64,000 bases of DNA. It comes from Microtetraspora malaysiensis (GTDB taxonomy: Bacteria; Actinomycetota; Actinomycetes; Streptosporangiales; Streptosporangiaceae). Position 1 is the first letter of the stretch, and the number at the start of each line of letters is the position of its first letter. A program made the translations under genes and the position numbers. Of this stretch, positions 1 through 60,325 are shown piece by piece. The notes beneath the pieces were generated by a model that searched no databases, was not told the DNA's origin, and saw only the letters and a program-made list of their open reading frames with translations. The stretch lies in NCBI RefSeq assembly GCF_001528665.1, contig NZ_BBYJ01000017.1, positions 286,828 to 350,827 of the forward strand, read 5' to 3'.

Positions 1-342
1 CTGCACCGAGAGGCCGGGCTCGCCGAGCAGGTCGGCCGTGTAGACGGCGCGGCGCGAAGCGGTGAGACCGGCGAGGTTCGGCGCCCACATCGGGGTGGAC
101 GCGGTGCGTCCCGGCAGCAGGAGGAGCGGCCTTCCGGCGTCGGCGTCGTCGGCGCCGAAGCGGTAGACGCGCACGGTCCCGAAGCCGGTCGGCACGTCCT
201 GGACCTGGTCGGGCGCCGGAAGGTCGGCCATGGCCCGGTCGTAGTTTCGCCGGTAGCGCGTGTAGGCCGGCGCGTCCGTGAAGTGTCCGAGGCGCCGTCG
301 GTTGAACTCGGCTCCGATGTTGGGCCGCACGAGGTCGTTCAC
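1..342 (-). CDS. Alpha/beta hydrolase, N-terminal part (runs off window)
   Basis: The reverse strand reads 114 codons without a stop from a GTG at 342 to the window edge, preceded by GGAGGA at 7-nt spacing. The product has an N-terminal lead of about 50 residues and then an LLLLPGRTAS stretch, the usual first core strand plus oxyanion turn of alpha/beta hydrolases, followed by TADLLGEPG. The catalytic nucleophile and His lie outside the window, so the substrate cannot be told. It is divergent from a TetR gene, and the palindromic operator between them suggests that TetR controls this gene. Family assignment is from the fold pattern only. Confidence 0.7.
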   Translation of the reverse strand, partial: MNDLVRPNIGAEFNRRRLGHFTDAPAYTRYRRNYDRAMADLPAPDQVQDVPTGFGTVRVYRFGADDADAGRPLLLLPGRTASTPMWAPNLAGLTASRRAVYTADLLGEPGLSVQ

Positions 343-12692: not shown

Positions 12693-14678
12693 GTGCCCCC
12701 TCACACTGACGCGGCGATGAGCCCTCCCCTCGCTCTGAGCCTCTCGTTCGCCACCGTTGTGATGCTGGTCCTGCTGGCCGTGGCGGCCAGACGGCTCCTG
12801 GGTGTCACGTTCGGTGCCTTCCGCACGGCCGTCGCCGCGGTTCTGGCGTTCGTCCTGACCGGCCCGATGCTGTCTCCGGTCATGGCGCAGTTCCAGAGCA
12901 CCGGGACGGGGAGCGATTCGGGGTTCGGCGCGCTGTGGGTGCTCGTACTCGTGGTCATGTGCATCGTGCTGTTGCCCATGGTCATCCTGGTGGTCGCCGA
13001 GGCGCTCGTGCCGTCGGGCTCCGTCCCCGGGCCGATCGAGGTCGCCCGTTCGCTGCGCGGCCGGATCTCCAGGGCGCGCCGCTACTCGCAGATCACCCGC
13101 ATCGCGTTCCGGCACGGCCTGGGGCCGTACCTGCGCGGGCGGGGCGACCGGCTCGACGACCGGGGCGGCAGGGTACGGCTCGCCCGGGCGCTGCGCGGCG
13201 CCCTCGACGACGGCGGCGTCACCTTCGTGAAGCTCGGCCAGGTGCTCTCCACCCGCCGCGACCTGCTCCCCGCCGAGTTCGTCGAGGAGCTGGGCACGCT
13301 GCAGGACCGCGCCGCCCCCGCGCCGTGGGAGCAGGTCGAGCAGGTCCTCGTGGCCGAGCTCGGCGGGCCCGTCGACGAGGTCTTCGCCGAGTTCGACCGC
13401 AGTCCGCTGGCGTCCGCGTCCATCGCGCAGGCCTACGCCGCCCGGCTGCGTACGGGCGAGAGCGTGGTGGTCAAGGTTCAGCGCCCGGCCATCCGGGCGG
13501 TCGTCGCCCGTGACCTCGACATCGTGGCCCGGCTGGCCCGCACCCTGGAGGCCAGGACGCGCTGGGGCCGCGCGCTCGGACTGCGCGTCCTGGCCGACGG
13601 GTTCGCGGCCGCCATCCGGGAGGAGCTCGACTTCAGGGTCGAGGCGGGGAACATGGCCGCCGTCGCGGCCTCCGGCGGCGGCACCGTCACCTACCCGTCC
13701 CCGTACGCGGAGCTGTGCACGGAGCGCGTCCTCGTCATGGAGCGCCTCGTGGGCGAGCCGCTGTCCGGCGCCATCGAGCGCGGCCATGAGCAGGGTCACG
13801 AGCTGGCCCGCACGCTGCTCGGCTGCCTGCTGCGGCAGGTCCTGGTCGAGGGCGTCTTCCACGCCGACCCGCATCCCGGCAACATCATGCTGCTCCGCGA
13901 CGGCACGCTCGGCCTGCTCGACTTCGGCTCCGTCGGCCGCCTGGACGCGTCCGTACGGGCCGCGCTGCAGCGGTTCCTGGTCGCGATGAACCGCCAGGAC
14001 CCGCTCGGCGTCACCGACGCGCTGCTGGAGGTCGTCCCCAGGCCGGAGGAGATCGACGAGGCGGCTCTGGAGCGGGCGATGGGCCAGTTCATGGCCAGGC
14101 ATCTCGCGCCGGGCGGGGCGAGCGTGGTGATGTTCACCAACCTGTTCAAGATCGTCACGGAGTACGGCCTGGCCGTGCCGCCCGAGGTCGCGGCCGTCTT
14201 CCGGGCGCTGGCCACACTCGAAGGCACCCTCGTCGCCCTCGCACCCGGGTTCGACCTCATCGAGGAGGCCCGCGCCTTCGCCGGGCGGCACCTGGCGGAG
14301 CAGCTCAACGCGACGTCACTGAAGGACGAGGTGACCCACGAGCTCGCCACCCTGCTGCCGATGCTGCGGCGGCTGCCCCGGCGGGTCGAGCGGATCGCGA
14401 GCGCCGCGGAGCACGGGCGTTTCAGCATGAACGTGCGGCTGCTCGCCGACGAGCGGGACCGCCGGTTCATCACCGGGTTGCTGCACCAGGTCGTGCTCAC
14501 GGTGCTGGGGGCCACGGCGGGCATCATGGGCGTCGTCCTGCTCGGGACGGACGGAGGTCCTCAGGTGCTACCGAGGGTGATCAGCCTGTACGAGCTCATC
14601 GGGTTCAACCTGCTCGTCATCAGCGCGATCCTGGCGCTTCGGGTCCTCGTCGGCGTGTTCCGCCGGGACGGGCTCTGA
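12693..14678 (+). CDS. ABC1/AarF (UbiB-like) atypical kinase
   Basis: A protein of about 661 residues from GTG 12693, chosen because GGGAGGA lies nine bases upstream; ATG 12717 is an alternative without a visible site. Two N-terminal membrane spans (about residues 12-35 and 85-105) precede the atypical kinase domain, which has the KLGQ motif (near 180), a VVKVQRP nucleotide-binding strand, and HADPHPGN plus LDFGSVG (near 390). Two more spans lie at the C-terminus. Family members support quinone or lipid metabolism; a specific partner cannot be named from the context. Confidence 0.87.
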   Translation: MPPHTDAAMSPPLALSLSFATVVMLVLLAVAARRLLGVTFGAFRTAVAAVLAFVLTGPMLSPVMAQFQSTGTGSDSGFGALWVLVLVVMCIVLLPMVILVVAEALVPSGSVPGPIEVARSLRGRISRARRYSQITRIAFRHGLGPYLRGRGDRLDDRGGRVRLARALRGALDDGGVTFVKLGQVLSTRRDLLPAEFVEELGTLQDRAAPAPWEQVEQVLVAELGGPVDEVFAEFDRSPLASASIAQAYAARLRTGESVVVKVQRPAIRAVVARDLDIVARLARTLEARTRWGRALGLRVLADGFAAAIREELDFRVEAGNMAAVAASGGGTVTYPSPYAELCTERVLVMERLVGEPLSGAIERGHEQGHELARTLLGCLLRQVLVEGVFHADPHPGNIMLLRDGTLGLLDFGSVGRLDASVRAALQRFLVAMNRQDPLGVTDALLEVVPRPEEIDEAALERAMGQFMARHLAPGGASVVMFTNLFKIVTEYGLAVPPEVAAVFRALATLEGTLVALAPGFDLIEEARAFAGRHLAEQLNATSLKDEVTHELATLLPMLRRLPRRVERIASAAEHGRFSMNVRLLADERDRRFITGLLHQVVLTVLGATAGIMGVVLLGTDGGPQVLPRVISLYELIGFNLLVISAILALRVLVGVFRRDGL

Positions 14679-14784
14679 CCGTCCCGGCTCGGCTCCGCGC
14701 CGCCGCGTGAAGATTATCTACGGCGGAAGATCGGACGAATCACGCTTGCACGTGGGAGAACGCGCACGTAATCTTCCGGCAACG

Positions 14785-15033
14785 CGTTGACGGAGACGAG
14801 TAGTCACCGAACCGGACAGGTAGGAGAGAGCCGCCGGAAGCTGCGAAGGCGGACCTGTCCCCGGGAACGAAGACCCTCCTGAGCGCGGGGAGGAACGGCG
14901 CCCACGCCCAATGCCCCGCCGGCCGGCCCCCGTCATCGGGCCGTCGAGGCCGCCGTGTCACGGCGGTGAAAGTGCGGTGGCACCGCGAGTTCCCTTCTCG
15001 CCCGCACTCCCAAGGGATCACCACTCACTGATC
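14785..15033 (+). promoter_or_regulatory. T-box leader upstream of aspartyl-tRNA synthetase gene
   Basis: The core GCGGTGGCACCGCGA (14974-14988) matches the T-box consensus. It lies in a textbook T-arm-sensing hairpin: helix A1 14971-14977/15002-15008, a 7-nt bulge TGGCACC, and helix A2 14985-14989/14997-15001. The bulge TGGC can pair with a tRNA ending GCCA, which fits the G73 discriminator of tRNA-Asp and tRNA-Asn. Upstream, GGACAGGT and ACCTGTCC form a long stem enclosing GCCGCC/GGCGG, as expected for the distal part of stem I. A specifier such as AAC or GAC lies in GGGAACGAAGACC; I cannot decide which. There is no U-run, so control of translation is more likely. Confidence 0.85.
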
Positions 15034-15041
15034 AGAGGTTT

Positions 15042-16376
15042 GTGTTGATCTCCACGTCCGCAACAGTTCCCGCCTCCTGCCGTGTCCTGGCGGCGGAGCT
15101 TCCTCATCACGTCGGCCGGCGGGTGACCGTCCAGGGATGGCTCCACCGCAGGCGGGTCCTGAAATCCGTGGCCTTCCTCATCCTGCGCGACCGCTCCGGC
15201 CTGGCCCAGGTCGTGGTGGCCGAGCCCGACGCCCTGAGCGCCGTCGGCGACCACCCCGAGGAGACCGTCCTGCAGGTCACCGGGACGGTGACCGCCAACG
15301 CCCAGGCGCCCGGCGGAGCCGAGGTGACCTCGCCTGAGGTGGTCGCTCTGTCGGGCCCCGCGGTGGCCCCGCCGTTCGACCTCTATCGCCCCACGGTGCC
15401 GGCGACGTTGCCGACCGTCCTCGACCACGCGCCGGTCGCCCTGCGGCATCCACGGCTGCGGGCGCCCCACGCCATCTCCGCGGCGTCGGTGGCGGGGTTC
15501 CGTACGGCGCTGGACGCGCTCGGCTTCACCGAGATCCACACGCCGAAGGTGGTGGCCTCGGCGACCGAGTCGGGGGCCAACGTCTTCGCCATCGACTGGT
15601 TCGGCACCCGCGCCTATCTGGCCCAGTCGCCGCAGTTCTTCAAGCAGGCCATGGTCGGCGTCTTCGAGCGTGTCTACGAGATCGGCCCCGTCTTCCGGGC
15701 CGAGCCGCACGACACCGCGCGGCACCTGGCCCAGTACACCTCGCTGGACGCCGAGCTCGGCTTCATCACCGACCATCGCGAGGTGATGGCGGTGCTGCGC
15801 GAGGTTCTCGCCGGGATGACAGCCGCCGTCGCGGACCGGGCGGGCGAGGCGTGCGCCCTGTTGGACGTCACGATGCCCGAGGTCCCGCGCCAGATCCCGG
15901 AGATCCACTTCGCCGAGGCCCAGGAACTTCTCGCCGAGCACACCGGCGAGGACCCCCGGGGCGAGCCGGACCTGGCCCCGGCCCACGAACGCTGGCTGTC
16001 AGAGTGGGCGCTGCGTGAGCACGGCAGCGAGTTCCTGTTCGTCACCGGCTACCCGATGGTCAAGCGGCCCTTCTACACCCACCCCGAGCCCGGCAGGCCG
16101 GAGCATTCCAACAGCTTCGACCTGCTCTTCCGCGGTCTGGAGCTGGTGACCGGCGGCCAGCGCCTGCACCGCTACCAGGACTACCTCGCGGCCCTGGCGG
16201 CGCGCGGAGAGTCGCCCGAGCCGTACGCCGGATACCTGGCCGCCTTCCGGCACGGCATGCCGCCGCACGGCGGCTTCGCCATCGGCCTGGAACGGTGGAC
16301 CACCCGGCTGACCGAGGCCGACAACATCCGCCGCGCCACCCTGTTCCCGCGTGACCTTCACCGGCTGACCCCGTGA
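15042..16376 (+). CDS. aspS: Aspartate--tRNA(Asp/Asn) ligase, archaeal-type (AspS2)
   Basis: A 444-residue class II synthetase from GTG 15042 (AGAGG upstream). It has an OB-fold anticodon domain (residues 15-105: VTVQGWLHRRRVLKSVAFLILRD) and a class II core with motif 2 (VFRAEPHDTARHL) and motif 3 (GFAIGLERW). It lacks the GAD insertion of standard bacterial AspRS, so it is the short archaeal/Deinococcus type, often non-discriminating and feeding Asp-tRNA(Asn) to GatCAB. The T-box leader suggests induction when Asn or Asp tRNA is uncharged. It is probably additional to the housekeeping AspRS. Confidence 0.85.
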   Translation: MLISTSATVPASCRVLAAELPHHVGRRVTVQGWLHRRRVLKSVAFLILRDRSGLAQVVVAEPDALSAVGDHPEETVLQVTGTVTANAQAPGGAEVTSPEVVALSGPAVAPPFDLYRPTVPATLPTVLDHAPVALRHPRLRAPHAISAASVAGFRTALDALGFTEIHTPKVVASATESGANVFAIDWFGTRAYLAQSPQFFKQAMVGVFERVYEIGPVFRAEPHDTARHLAQYTSLDAELGFITDHREVMAVLREVLAGMTAAVADRAGEACALLDVTMPEVPRQIPEIHFAEAQELLAEHTGEDPRGEPDLAPAHERWLSEWALREHGSEFLFVTGYPMVKRPFYTHPEPGRPEHSNSFDLLFRGLELVTGGQRLHRYQDYLAALAARGESPEPYAGYLAAFRHGMPPHGGFAIGLERWTTRLTEADNIRRATLFPRDLHRLTP

Positions 16377-38483: not shown

Positions 38484-38557
38484 TCGGGGTGGCGGGATTT
38501 GAACCCACGGCCTCTTCGTCCCGAACGAAGCGCGCTGCCAAGCTGCGCTACACCCCG
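38484..38557 (-). tRNA. tRNA-Pro (anticodon CGG)
   Basis: The reverse strand folds into a full cloverleaf: acceptor stem CGGGGTG/CACCCCG with discriminator A, D-arm AGCGCAGCTTGGCAGCGCGCT, anticodon stem CTTCG/CGAAG with loop TTCGGGA (anticodon CGG), T-arm GGGTTCAAATCCC. CCA is not encoded. Its 3' end is duplicated at 35031-35065, marking it as an integration site. Confidence 0.95.
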
Positions 38558-60235: not shown

Positions 60236-60325
60236 TTTCTTCCGAATACGGGTCCGGCCTACCCCCCCAGTGCCGGACCGGTAGGCGACCCCCGCTCTCC
60301 CCCCCGGCGGGGGTCGCCCCTTTTG
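60236..60325 (+). ncRNA. 6C small RNA
   Basis: Two hairpins each present seven C in the loop: stem GGTCCGGC (60251-60258)/GCCGGACC (60272-60279) with C7 at 60262-60268, and GGCGACCCCCG (60284-60294)/CGGGGGTCGCC (60308-60318) with C7 at 60299-60305. A TTTT tail at 60321-60324 follows. This is the 6C RNA pattern (mycobacterial B11/ncRv13660c). It lies just upstream of ssd, as in M. tuberculosis. The 5' end is approximate. Confidence 0.88.

Follow-up and report, generated by a model that had tools for sequence, protein, structure and literature searches.

A predicted tRNA-Asp-sensing T-box leader on a second, archaeal-type aspartyl-tRNA synthetase gene in actinobacteria

In Bacillus subtilis, the spare synthetase genes thrZ and tyrZ are controlled by T-boxes through transcription antitermination. 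The transamidation operon aspS2-gatCAB of Clostridium acetobutylicum is reportedly under T-box control as well, with an Asn/Glu specifier. The class I LysRS of Bacillus cereus is a second synthetase controlled by a T-box (PMC2916919). T-boxes that act on translation are known for ileS in actinobacteria (PMC1262725, review PMC7583486); a 2005 survey placed T-boxes upstream of ileS (PMC1262725), a 2008 survey, whose text names ileS, counted 32 T-boxes in 12 actinobacterial genomes and mentions 18 in Symbiobacterium (PMC2494555), and, in the literature covered here, the translational T-boxes with a short stem I that are named belong to ileS. An extra AspRS is known in Actinomycetales (PMC4206432), and sections 16 and 17 of that article contain no mention of how actinobacterial AspRS genes are regulated. 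Our search covered the open-access literature, with TBDB and subscription papers outside it, and turned up no account of an actinobacterial Asp T-box or of an ultrashort T-box other than that of ileS. Within that literature, T-boxes, actinobacterial translational ileS T-boxes and the second AspRS of Actinomycetales are known, and an Asp T-box on aspS2 is apparently new.

We analysed a 64,000-nucleotide stretch of the Microtetraspora malaysiensis genome (contig NZ_BBYJ01000017.1, positions 286,828 to 350,827; hereafter the window). The 5' leader of its aspS2 gene, at about 14779-15044 on the + strand, is a full-length T-box with stems I, II, IIA/B and III and an antisequestrator. The features of the locus are:

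14746-14751 and 14769-14774, + strand: likely candidate promoter, -35 TTGCAC, 17-base spacer, -10 TAATCT (sequence reading)
14779-14885, + strand: stem I, long form (RF00230 alignment; covariation over 57 leaders)
14783-14785 with 14883-14885, + strand: K-turn flank of stem I (RF00230 alignment)
14792-14795 with 14876-14879, + strand: lower helix of stem I, GGAG/CUCC (RF00230 alignment; covariation over 57 leaders)
14799-14802 with 14869-14871, + strand: S-turn, AGUA with GAA (RF00230 alignment; covariation)
14825-14829 and 14836-14847, + strand: elbow-binding motif, AGAGA and distal loop (RF00230 alignment)
14872-14874, + strand: specifier GAC (Asp), directly after the S-turn GAA without a linker, then C
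14885-14919, + strand: stem II, GCGGGG/CCCCGC (RF00230 alignment; sequence)
14950-14966, + strand: stem III hairpin, CCGCCGT/ACGGCGG (RF00230 alignment; sequence)
14972-15007, + strand: antisequestrator, A1 GTGCGG/CCGCAC, A2 GCGAG/CTCGC, loop TTCCCTT (sequence; RF00230 alignment)
15014-15020, + strand: GGGATCA, proposed to pair with TGATCTC of the start-codon region at 15046-15052 (matched-versus-mismatched partner test)
15034-15038, + strand: Shine-Dalgarno (SD) AGAGG, 6 bases ahead of TTG 15045 (sequence)
15045-16376, + strand: aspS2, archaeal-type aspartyl-tRNA synthetase, predicted non-discriminating, 443 aa (profile and structure matches)

The aspS2 product is an archaeal-type, GAD-less class II AspRS with an OB fold. 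It scores 543.6 bits against NCBIfam PRK05159 (aspartate--tRNA(Asn) ligase; cut-off 353) and carries only the Pfam domains tRNA-synt_2 and tRNA_anti-codon, with no GAD domain found, in keeping with the short, GAD-less enzyme that the original prediction described. Its closest PDB match is Thermus thermophilus AspRS2 (1n9w), with which it shares His34 (GWLH) and the Pro of APGG; chain 3nel, which we take to come from T. kodakarensis, has W and K there, and both positions presumably bear on tRNA-Asn recognition. By these residues and matches the enzyme is probably a non-discriminating AspRS. Translation most likely starts at TTG 15045; we preferred this codon to GTG 15042 because most relatives have ATG at that position.

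The original prediction had named AsnRS, GatCAB and a second AspRS as informative genes. In this genome a profile search found no AsnRS above cut-off, GatB is above cut-off on a contig other than that of aspS2, and a bacterial-type AspRS is also present (C12, TIGR00459). The arrangement recalls C. acetobutylicum in that a T-box precedes an additional AspRS connected with the tRNA-dependent formation of Asn, and differs from what is reported there (an Asn/Glu specifier and an operon with gatCAB) in its Asp specifier and its separate GatB. As with thrZ, tyrZ and the B. cereus LysRS, a spare synthetase carries a T-box, although those cases are in Firmicutes and concern other amino acids. With the non-discriminating AspRS2 of Thermus and Deinococcus it shares a GAD-less second AspRS beside the bacterial AspRS in AsnRS-less GatCAB organisms (PMC4206432).

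Using cmscan in E-value mode on 14650-15100, we aligned RF00230 over its whole length (model positions 1-219 of 219) with 14778-15008 on the + strand, at 59.8 bits and E 1.2e-12. The match is far beyond chance and bears out the earlier claim of a T-box leader on an archaeal-type AspRS, though it is sub-threshold for Rfam. Because 59.8 bits lies below the gathering score of 93 bits, the default gathering-threshold scan of the window listed no T-box, only tRNA and 6C RNA. Helix A1 (14971/14972-14977 with 15002-15007/15008), helix A2 (14985-14989 with 14997-15001) and the bulge TGGCACC (14978-14984) lie exactly where the original prediction had put them, both in the sequence and in the RF00230 alignment. 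Stem I, whose absence from a covariance-model match had been named as grounds for doubt, was matched too, and the hallmarks of T-boxes are present: the S-turn AGUA/GAA, a specifier loop and a distal double T-loop.

Minimum-free-energy folding of the window's leader gave no signal (z +0.23). Covariation among relatives supports the structure. Over 57 leaders (from 68 candidate pieces, at most two per genus, with duplicates and odd lengths dropped), stem I had 91.6% paired cells and two-sided changes in 18 of 25 pairs, against 37-48% and 7-9 pairs in slid controls, and 0 of 500 shuffles equalled the observed covariation on any of five measures. A 6-base A1 complement, with G-U allowed, occurs in all 119 leaders of our larger set, which joins 39 leaders of the window's family, the window included, to 80 from named genomes; some species are counted twice in it, since six pairs are identical over the 150 bases before A1. 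The two A1 strands co-vary as GTGCGG/CCGCAC, GTGTGG/CCACAC, GCGTGG/CCACGC and GCGCGG/CCGCGC. A separate family alignment comprised 33 of the 39 leaders, those with long inserts or no stem II being excluded.

The T-box probably stands at the very start of its transcript, because the TAATCT box adjoins the match, ending at 14774, three bases ahead of the match start at 14778, and because -10 and -35 boxes recur in family leaders. TAnnnT lies 24-26 bases ahead of the S-turn AGUA in 39/39 of them, and 18/39 have the full arrangement TTGnnn-16..18-TAnnnT; a strict sigma-70 scan found no promoter.

We consider it very probable that this leader is a translational T-box that senses tRNA-Asp and renders the second AspRS inducible, a reading that builds on the structure, the specifier, the discriminator match, the gene's identity, conservation, and pairing with the SD and start codon across relatives. 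Uncharged tRNA-Asp would make two contacts: its GUC anticodon with the GAC of stem I, and its free GCCA end with the UGGC of the bulge, the second of which would stabilise the antisequestrator. Charged tRNA-Asp would leave the antisequestrator unheld; the freed A1 3' strand and the segment after it could then cover the SD and the start codon, and translation of AspRS2 would drop. We infer the switch itself, tRNA binding, its direction and its physiological trigger; that uncharged tRNA-Asp raises AspRS2 is the direction expected from established T-box behaviour. On this proposal AspRS2, the second AspRS, would be induced during a shortage of Asp-tRNA-Asp, such as might follow from aspartate starvation or from inhibition of the bacterial housekeeping enzyme. 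That would offer a regulatory rationale for the puzzling presence of a second AspRS in Actinomycetales, as a spare brought in when Asp-tRNA falls.

Control of aspS2 is most likely translational, a view that we hold with moderate confidence: pairing across relatives and the lack of a terminator point to it, and folding of the window's own leader shows no switch. In a test that set each leader's own segments against mismatched segments from other leaders (all 119; some starts, such as that of L094, are misplaced), the A1 3' strand paired with the SD at z -4.4 (0/5000 permutations; one leader per genus, z -3.4, 1/5000) and the post-A1 segment with the start-codon region at z -7.6 (0/5000; one per genus, z -4.4, 0/5000), counts that ignore the relatedness of the leaders and so do not represent independent events, independent changes being few. 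The second pairing is striking by eye: where the gene begins AUGAUC, GGGAUCA faces UGAUCUC or UGAUCC, and leaders of genes beginning AUGCAACGCAUCC carry GCGUUGC instead. In 111/119 leaders one or both of these pairings are strong enough to pass a simple energy threshold; SD pairing in the window's own clade is weak (-4.1 kcal/mol). When the antisequestrator was forced or excluded in the nested ensemble of the window, opening stayed at 0.65/0.65 for the SD and 0.34/0.34 for the start; also against the model, the start-codon helix and the antisequestrator share no bases. Across the 106 of 119 leaders that this ensemble test took, leaders above 60 bases being dropped, the SD opened by >0.1 in 34 and changed in the opposite sense in 2.

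Transcriptional control, in which the leader would terminate or attenuate transcription (for example through Rho) instead of hiding the ribosome site, is improbable. Most annotated T-boxes do act on transcription (review PMC7583486), and the window's folding gave no visible switch. Against this, we found no terminator-like site in 14660-15100, the SD and start pairings covary at clade level, and actinobacterial ileS T-boxes have been proposed to be translational (PMC1262725). The glyQS-type antiterminator of the original prediction thus keeps its helices and bulge, but is most likely a translational antisequestrator, given the pairing with SD and start and the missing terminator. We also considered an OFF state with an H-type pseudoknot, helix S1, between the A2 loop UCCCUU and AAGGGA. 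Both sides are conserved, with compensating letters in some clades; we do not claim it, because matched partners paired no better than mismatched ones (z -0.5; one per genus, -0.2).

The translational reading sets the aspS2 leader beside the ileS T-boxes of Actinobacteria, with which it shares a T-box aptamer and, on that reading, would share an SD-sequestering platform. Those leaders have AUC, a one-base linker after GAA and a following A, whereas the aspS2 leader has GAC, no linker and a following C, with UGGC instead of UGGU. The only other T-box hit in the window's genome is an ileS leader (L001:1501-1722, - strand; 70.1 bits, also <93) with a long stem I and AUC, ahead of an IleRS that we read from its frame. 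It reads GAA-A-AUC-A with UGGU, and nine other actinobacterial leaders also have a base between GAA and AUC; Asp leaders have no linker base after GAA, and most lack the following purine.

The specifier itself is settled, on comparison of relatives, as GAC (Asp) and not AAC (Asn). GAC is kept in the long stem I of 112/119 leaders, the window included (105 parsed, 7 read by eye; the parse covered 105/119, with L085 in the wrong register), and the seven leaders without a long stem I are six from Catellatospora and L093. In long-form relatives GAC adjoins GAA directly; after it comes, as a rule, a single C, A or G and then the 3' strand of the lower helix, CUCC or CUUC, whose partner is GGAG or GAAG. 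All six pairs of the helix above the S-turn have two-sided changes, which fixes the register. The codon agrees with the AspRS encoded downstream, so the specifier names the right amino acid for its gene. The base after it is C in 68, A in 34 and G in 2 of the 105 parsed leaders, with one misparse, and is C in the window, where the purine directly after the specifier is absent. We treat that purine as a frequent, not a defining, feature of T-boxes; where stem II is present, its contacts make stacking on this base less necessary (review PMC7583486), a possible reason why most Asp leaders lack it.

We read tRNA types at the loci of the best 30 of 57 tRNA hits. The tRNA-Asp among them (anticodon GTC) has G73 as its discriminator, tRNA-Asn has G73 and a U1-A72 pair, and tRNA-Glu (TTC) has A73. 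The UGGC bulge matches the G73 of the genome's own tRNA-Asp, and the earlier remark that UGGC suits a GCCA end as in tRNA-Asp and tRNA-Asn holds for both. Among these three tRNAs, only tRNA-Asp fits GAC and UGGC without wobble. Across the 119 leaders the bulge is UGGC in 105 and UGGU in 14, and the latter would pair with G73 by wobble.

It is very unlikely that AAC is the specifier and that the leader, by sensing tRNA-Asn, monitors the amidotransferase pathway. The window does have AAC at 14866-14868, just ahead of GAA, tRNA-Asn also has the G73 that fits UGGC, and the aspS2 product is predicted to be non-discriminating. We rejected the AAC reading since relatives differ in the base ahead of GAA (C, T or G), whereas GAC is kept in 112/119; AAC would also sit on the far side of the S-turn, inside the covarying upper helix, and relatives with ultrashort leaders present GAC in a loop. 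The original prediction had left it to an Asn or Asp specifier to decide which pathway is sensed; conservation decides for Asp, and the amidotransferase (Asn) branch would not be sensed directly.

Dual specificity, in which the GAA of the S-turn would also serve as a Glu specifier or both Asp and Asn tRNAs would be sensed, has an even smaller chance of being right. GAA adjoins GAC, and a T-box with two codons is said to exist in Clostridium. GAA is accounted for by the S-turn opposite AGUA, the tRNA-Glu seen among the best 30 of 57 tRNA hits has A73 and is unfit for UGGC, and Asn would require a G-U first pair. We rejected GAA as the specifier.

T-boxes recur on archaeal-type AspRS genes in many actinobacteria, as judged from their upstream sequences. 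In the window's family, 45/150 genomes encode the aspS2 protein (E 1e-60 or better), and 39/45 have a T-box just upstream, counting three (G125, G077, G024) whose RF00230 matches are weak (E 0.002-0.6) and which we read by eye. The six loci without a T-box are that of G104 and the divergent copies of G115, G139, G016, G102 and G074; four pieces (L050, L051, L052, L207) were examined by cmscan, and G102 and G074 were judged by eye. The five divergent copies have 41-45% identity, and four others at 43-45% do carry a T-box. Bacterial AspRS is over cut-off in 42/45 of the family genomes with aspS2; those without it are G128 (99% complete, 170 contigs), G104 (93%) and G125 (77%). In G128, AspRS2 has a T-box and no bacterial-type AspRS was found; if that assembly is right, AspRS2 can serve as the sole AspRS.

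Among named genomes we kept the best 80 of 298 relatives, which are the closest and therefore not a fair sample, and all 80 have the bulge motif upstream of aspS2. They include Microtetraspora, Streptosporangium, Nonomuraea, Streptomyces, Kitasatospora, Catenulispora, Kutzneria, Micromonospora, Amycolatopsis, Nocardioides and others. Ten of these leaders were scanned, and all match RF00230 at 35.5-79.9 bits, each <93; the Rfam threshold misses such elements in these genomes. Class-wide, the aspS2 protein occurs in 36/394 genomes. The element is present in 21/21 of those with ≥59% identity, window included (13 by the stem I model R1, 8 by reading upstream DNA), and in G317 at 42% identity; it was not found in the three copies checked of 14 at 35-40% identity. 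A T-box that had decayed to a non-functional remnant and travelled with its gene by horizontal transfer would suit the gene's patchy presence, and a real fossil exists elsewhere (L177, below), but the strong covariation, the tRNA-contact elements that are invariant across genera and the -10-like box at constant upstream distance in 39/39 leaders make this highly improbable. In G156 (L173, G156:C895), aspS2 appears split, with the T-box and an AspRS2-like N-terminus followed by the rest about 3 kb further on the same contig. CRISPR repeats (RF01340) lie at L069:1363-1399 and 1437-1473, about 800 bases upstream of the Streptoalloteichus aspS2 T-box.

Some relatives have a reduced stem I. In six Catellatospora leaders (L099, L101, L104, L108, L113, L122), a 5' hairpin GGGGCGA(A)UCACCGGAGUGACGCCC replaces it, with GAC on the 3' side. 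In seven further genomes (G351, G276, G414, G421, G305, G482, G214), the antisequestrator remains and RF00230 finds nothing; by eye, most of these ultrashort leaders have a strong anti-SD. When we searched the whole family around G351, the gene turned up in 92/341 genomes (E 1e-90), and 30 loci were obtained: stem I is long in 7, 21 have a hairpin with the loop NNUGAC[A/G]NN, and 2 lack the element (L214, L219), so that long and ultrashort stem I occur within one bacterial family. In 25 ultrashort hairpins (19 unique; four further loci included), 3.89 of 4 stem positions were paired, against 3.43 with mismatched partners (0/5000), the loop being fixed at 9 bases; L233 (2/4) and L202 (3/4) fit less well. 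The constancy of GAC in these loops is partly built in, because the search pattern requires UGAC[A/G]. The ultrashort aspS2 leaders comprise L196, L197-L202 and 21 of loci L209-L236, mostly in family f26, with the bulge intact.

A sister leader in G357 (L176:1364-1610, - strand) reads GAA-UCC-A, without a linker and with UGGC, in front of serS (TIGR00414, 361.8 bits; cut-off 301.65). The R1 model scores it at 92.5 bits, within the Asp range of 76-121; the remaining R1 hits reach at most 64.5 bits, and nine of them carry AUC. It looks like a specifier-switched (UCC, Ser) sister of the Asp leaders. In G203 (L177:1501-1745), a UCC stem I is fused directly to a serS 3' end, by eye a deletion fossil, and adjoins the same upstream gene as L176.

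Taken jointly, and as a tentative proposal well short of our confidence in the aspS2 leader itself, these leaders may form an unrecognised actinobacterial T-box lineage whose long form has a zero-linker specifier loop and whose members guard additional synthetases of G73 tRNAs. The lineage would be Asp-specific on archaeal-type AspRS2 over much of the class, would have switched its specifier to UCC on a serS, and would repeatedly have lost most of stem I, leaving ultrashort hairpins whose loop still presents GAC. Both the start codon and the SD would be covered, and AspRS2 would act as a backup, or as self-protection, that is induced when the housekeeping AspRS is lost. With such a natural family, which includes another codon and has long and ultrashort forms in one bacterial family, loss of the elbow-binding domain by a T-box that keeps its specificity becomes directly testable.

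Elsewhere in the window, a 6C RNA (RF01066) lies at 60248-60322 (57.6 bits) and a tRNA gene at 38484-38557 on the - strand (64.1 bits), with anticodon CGG (Pro) by loop reading.
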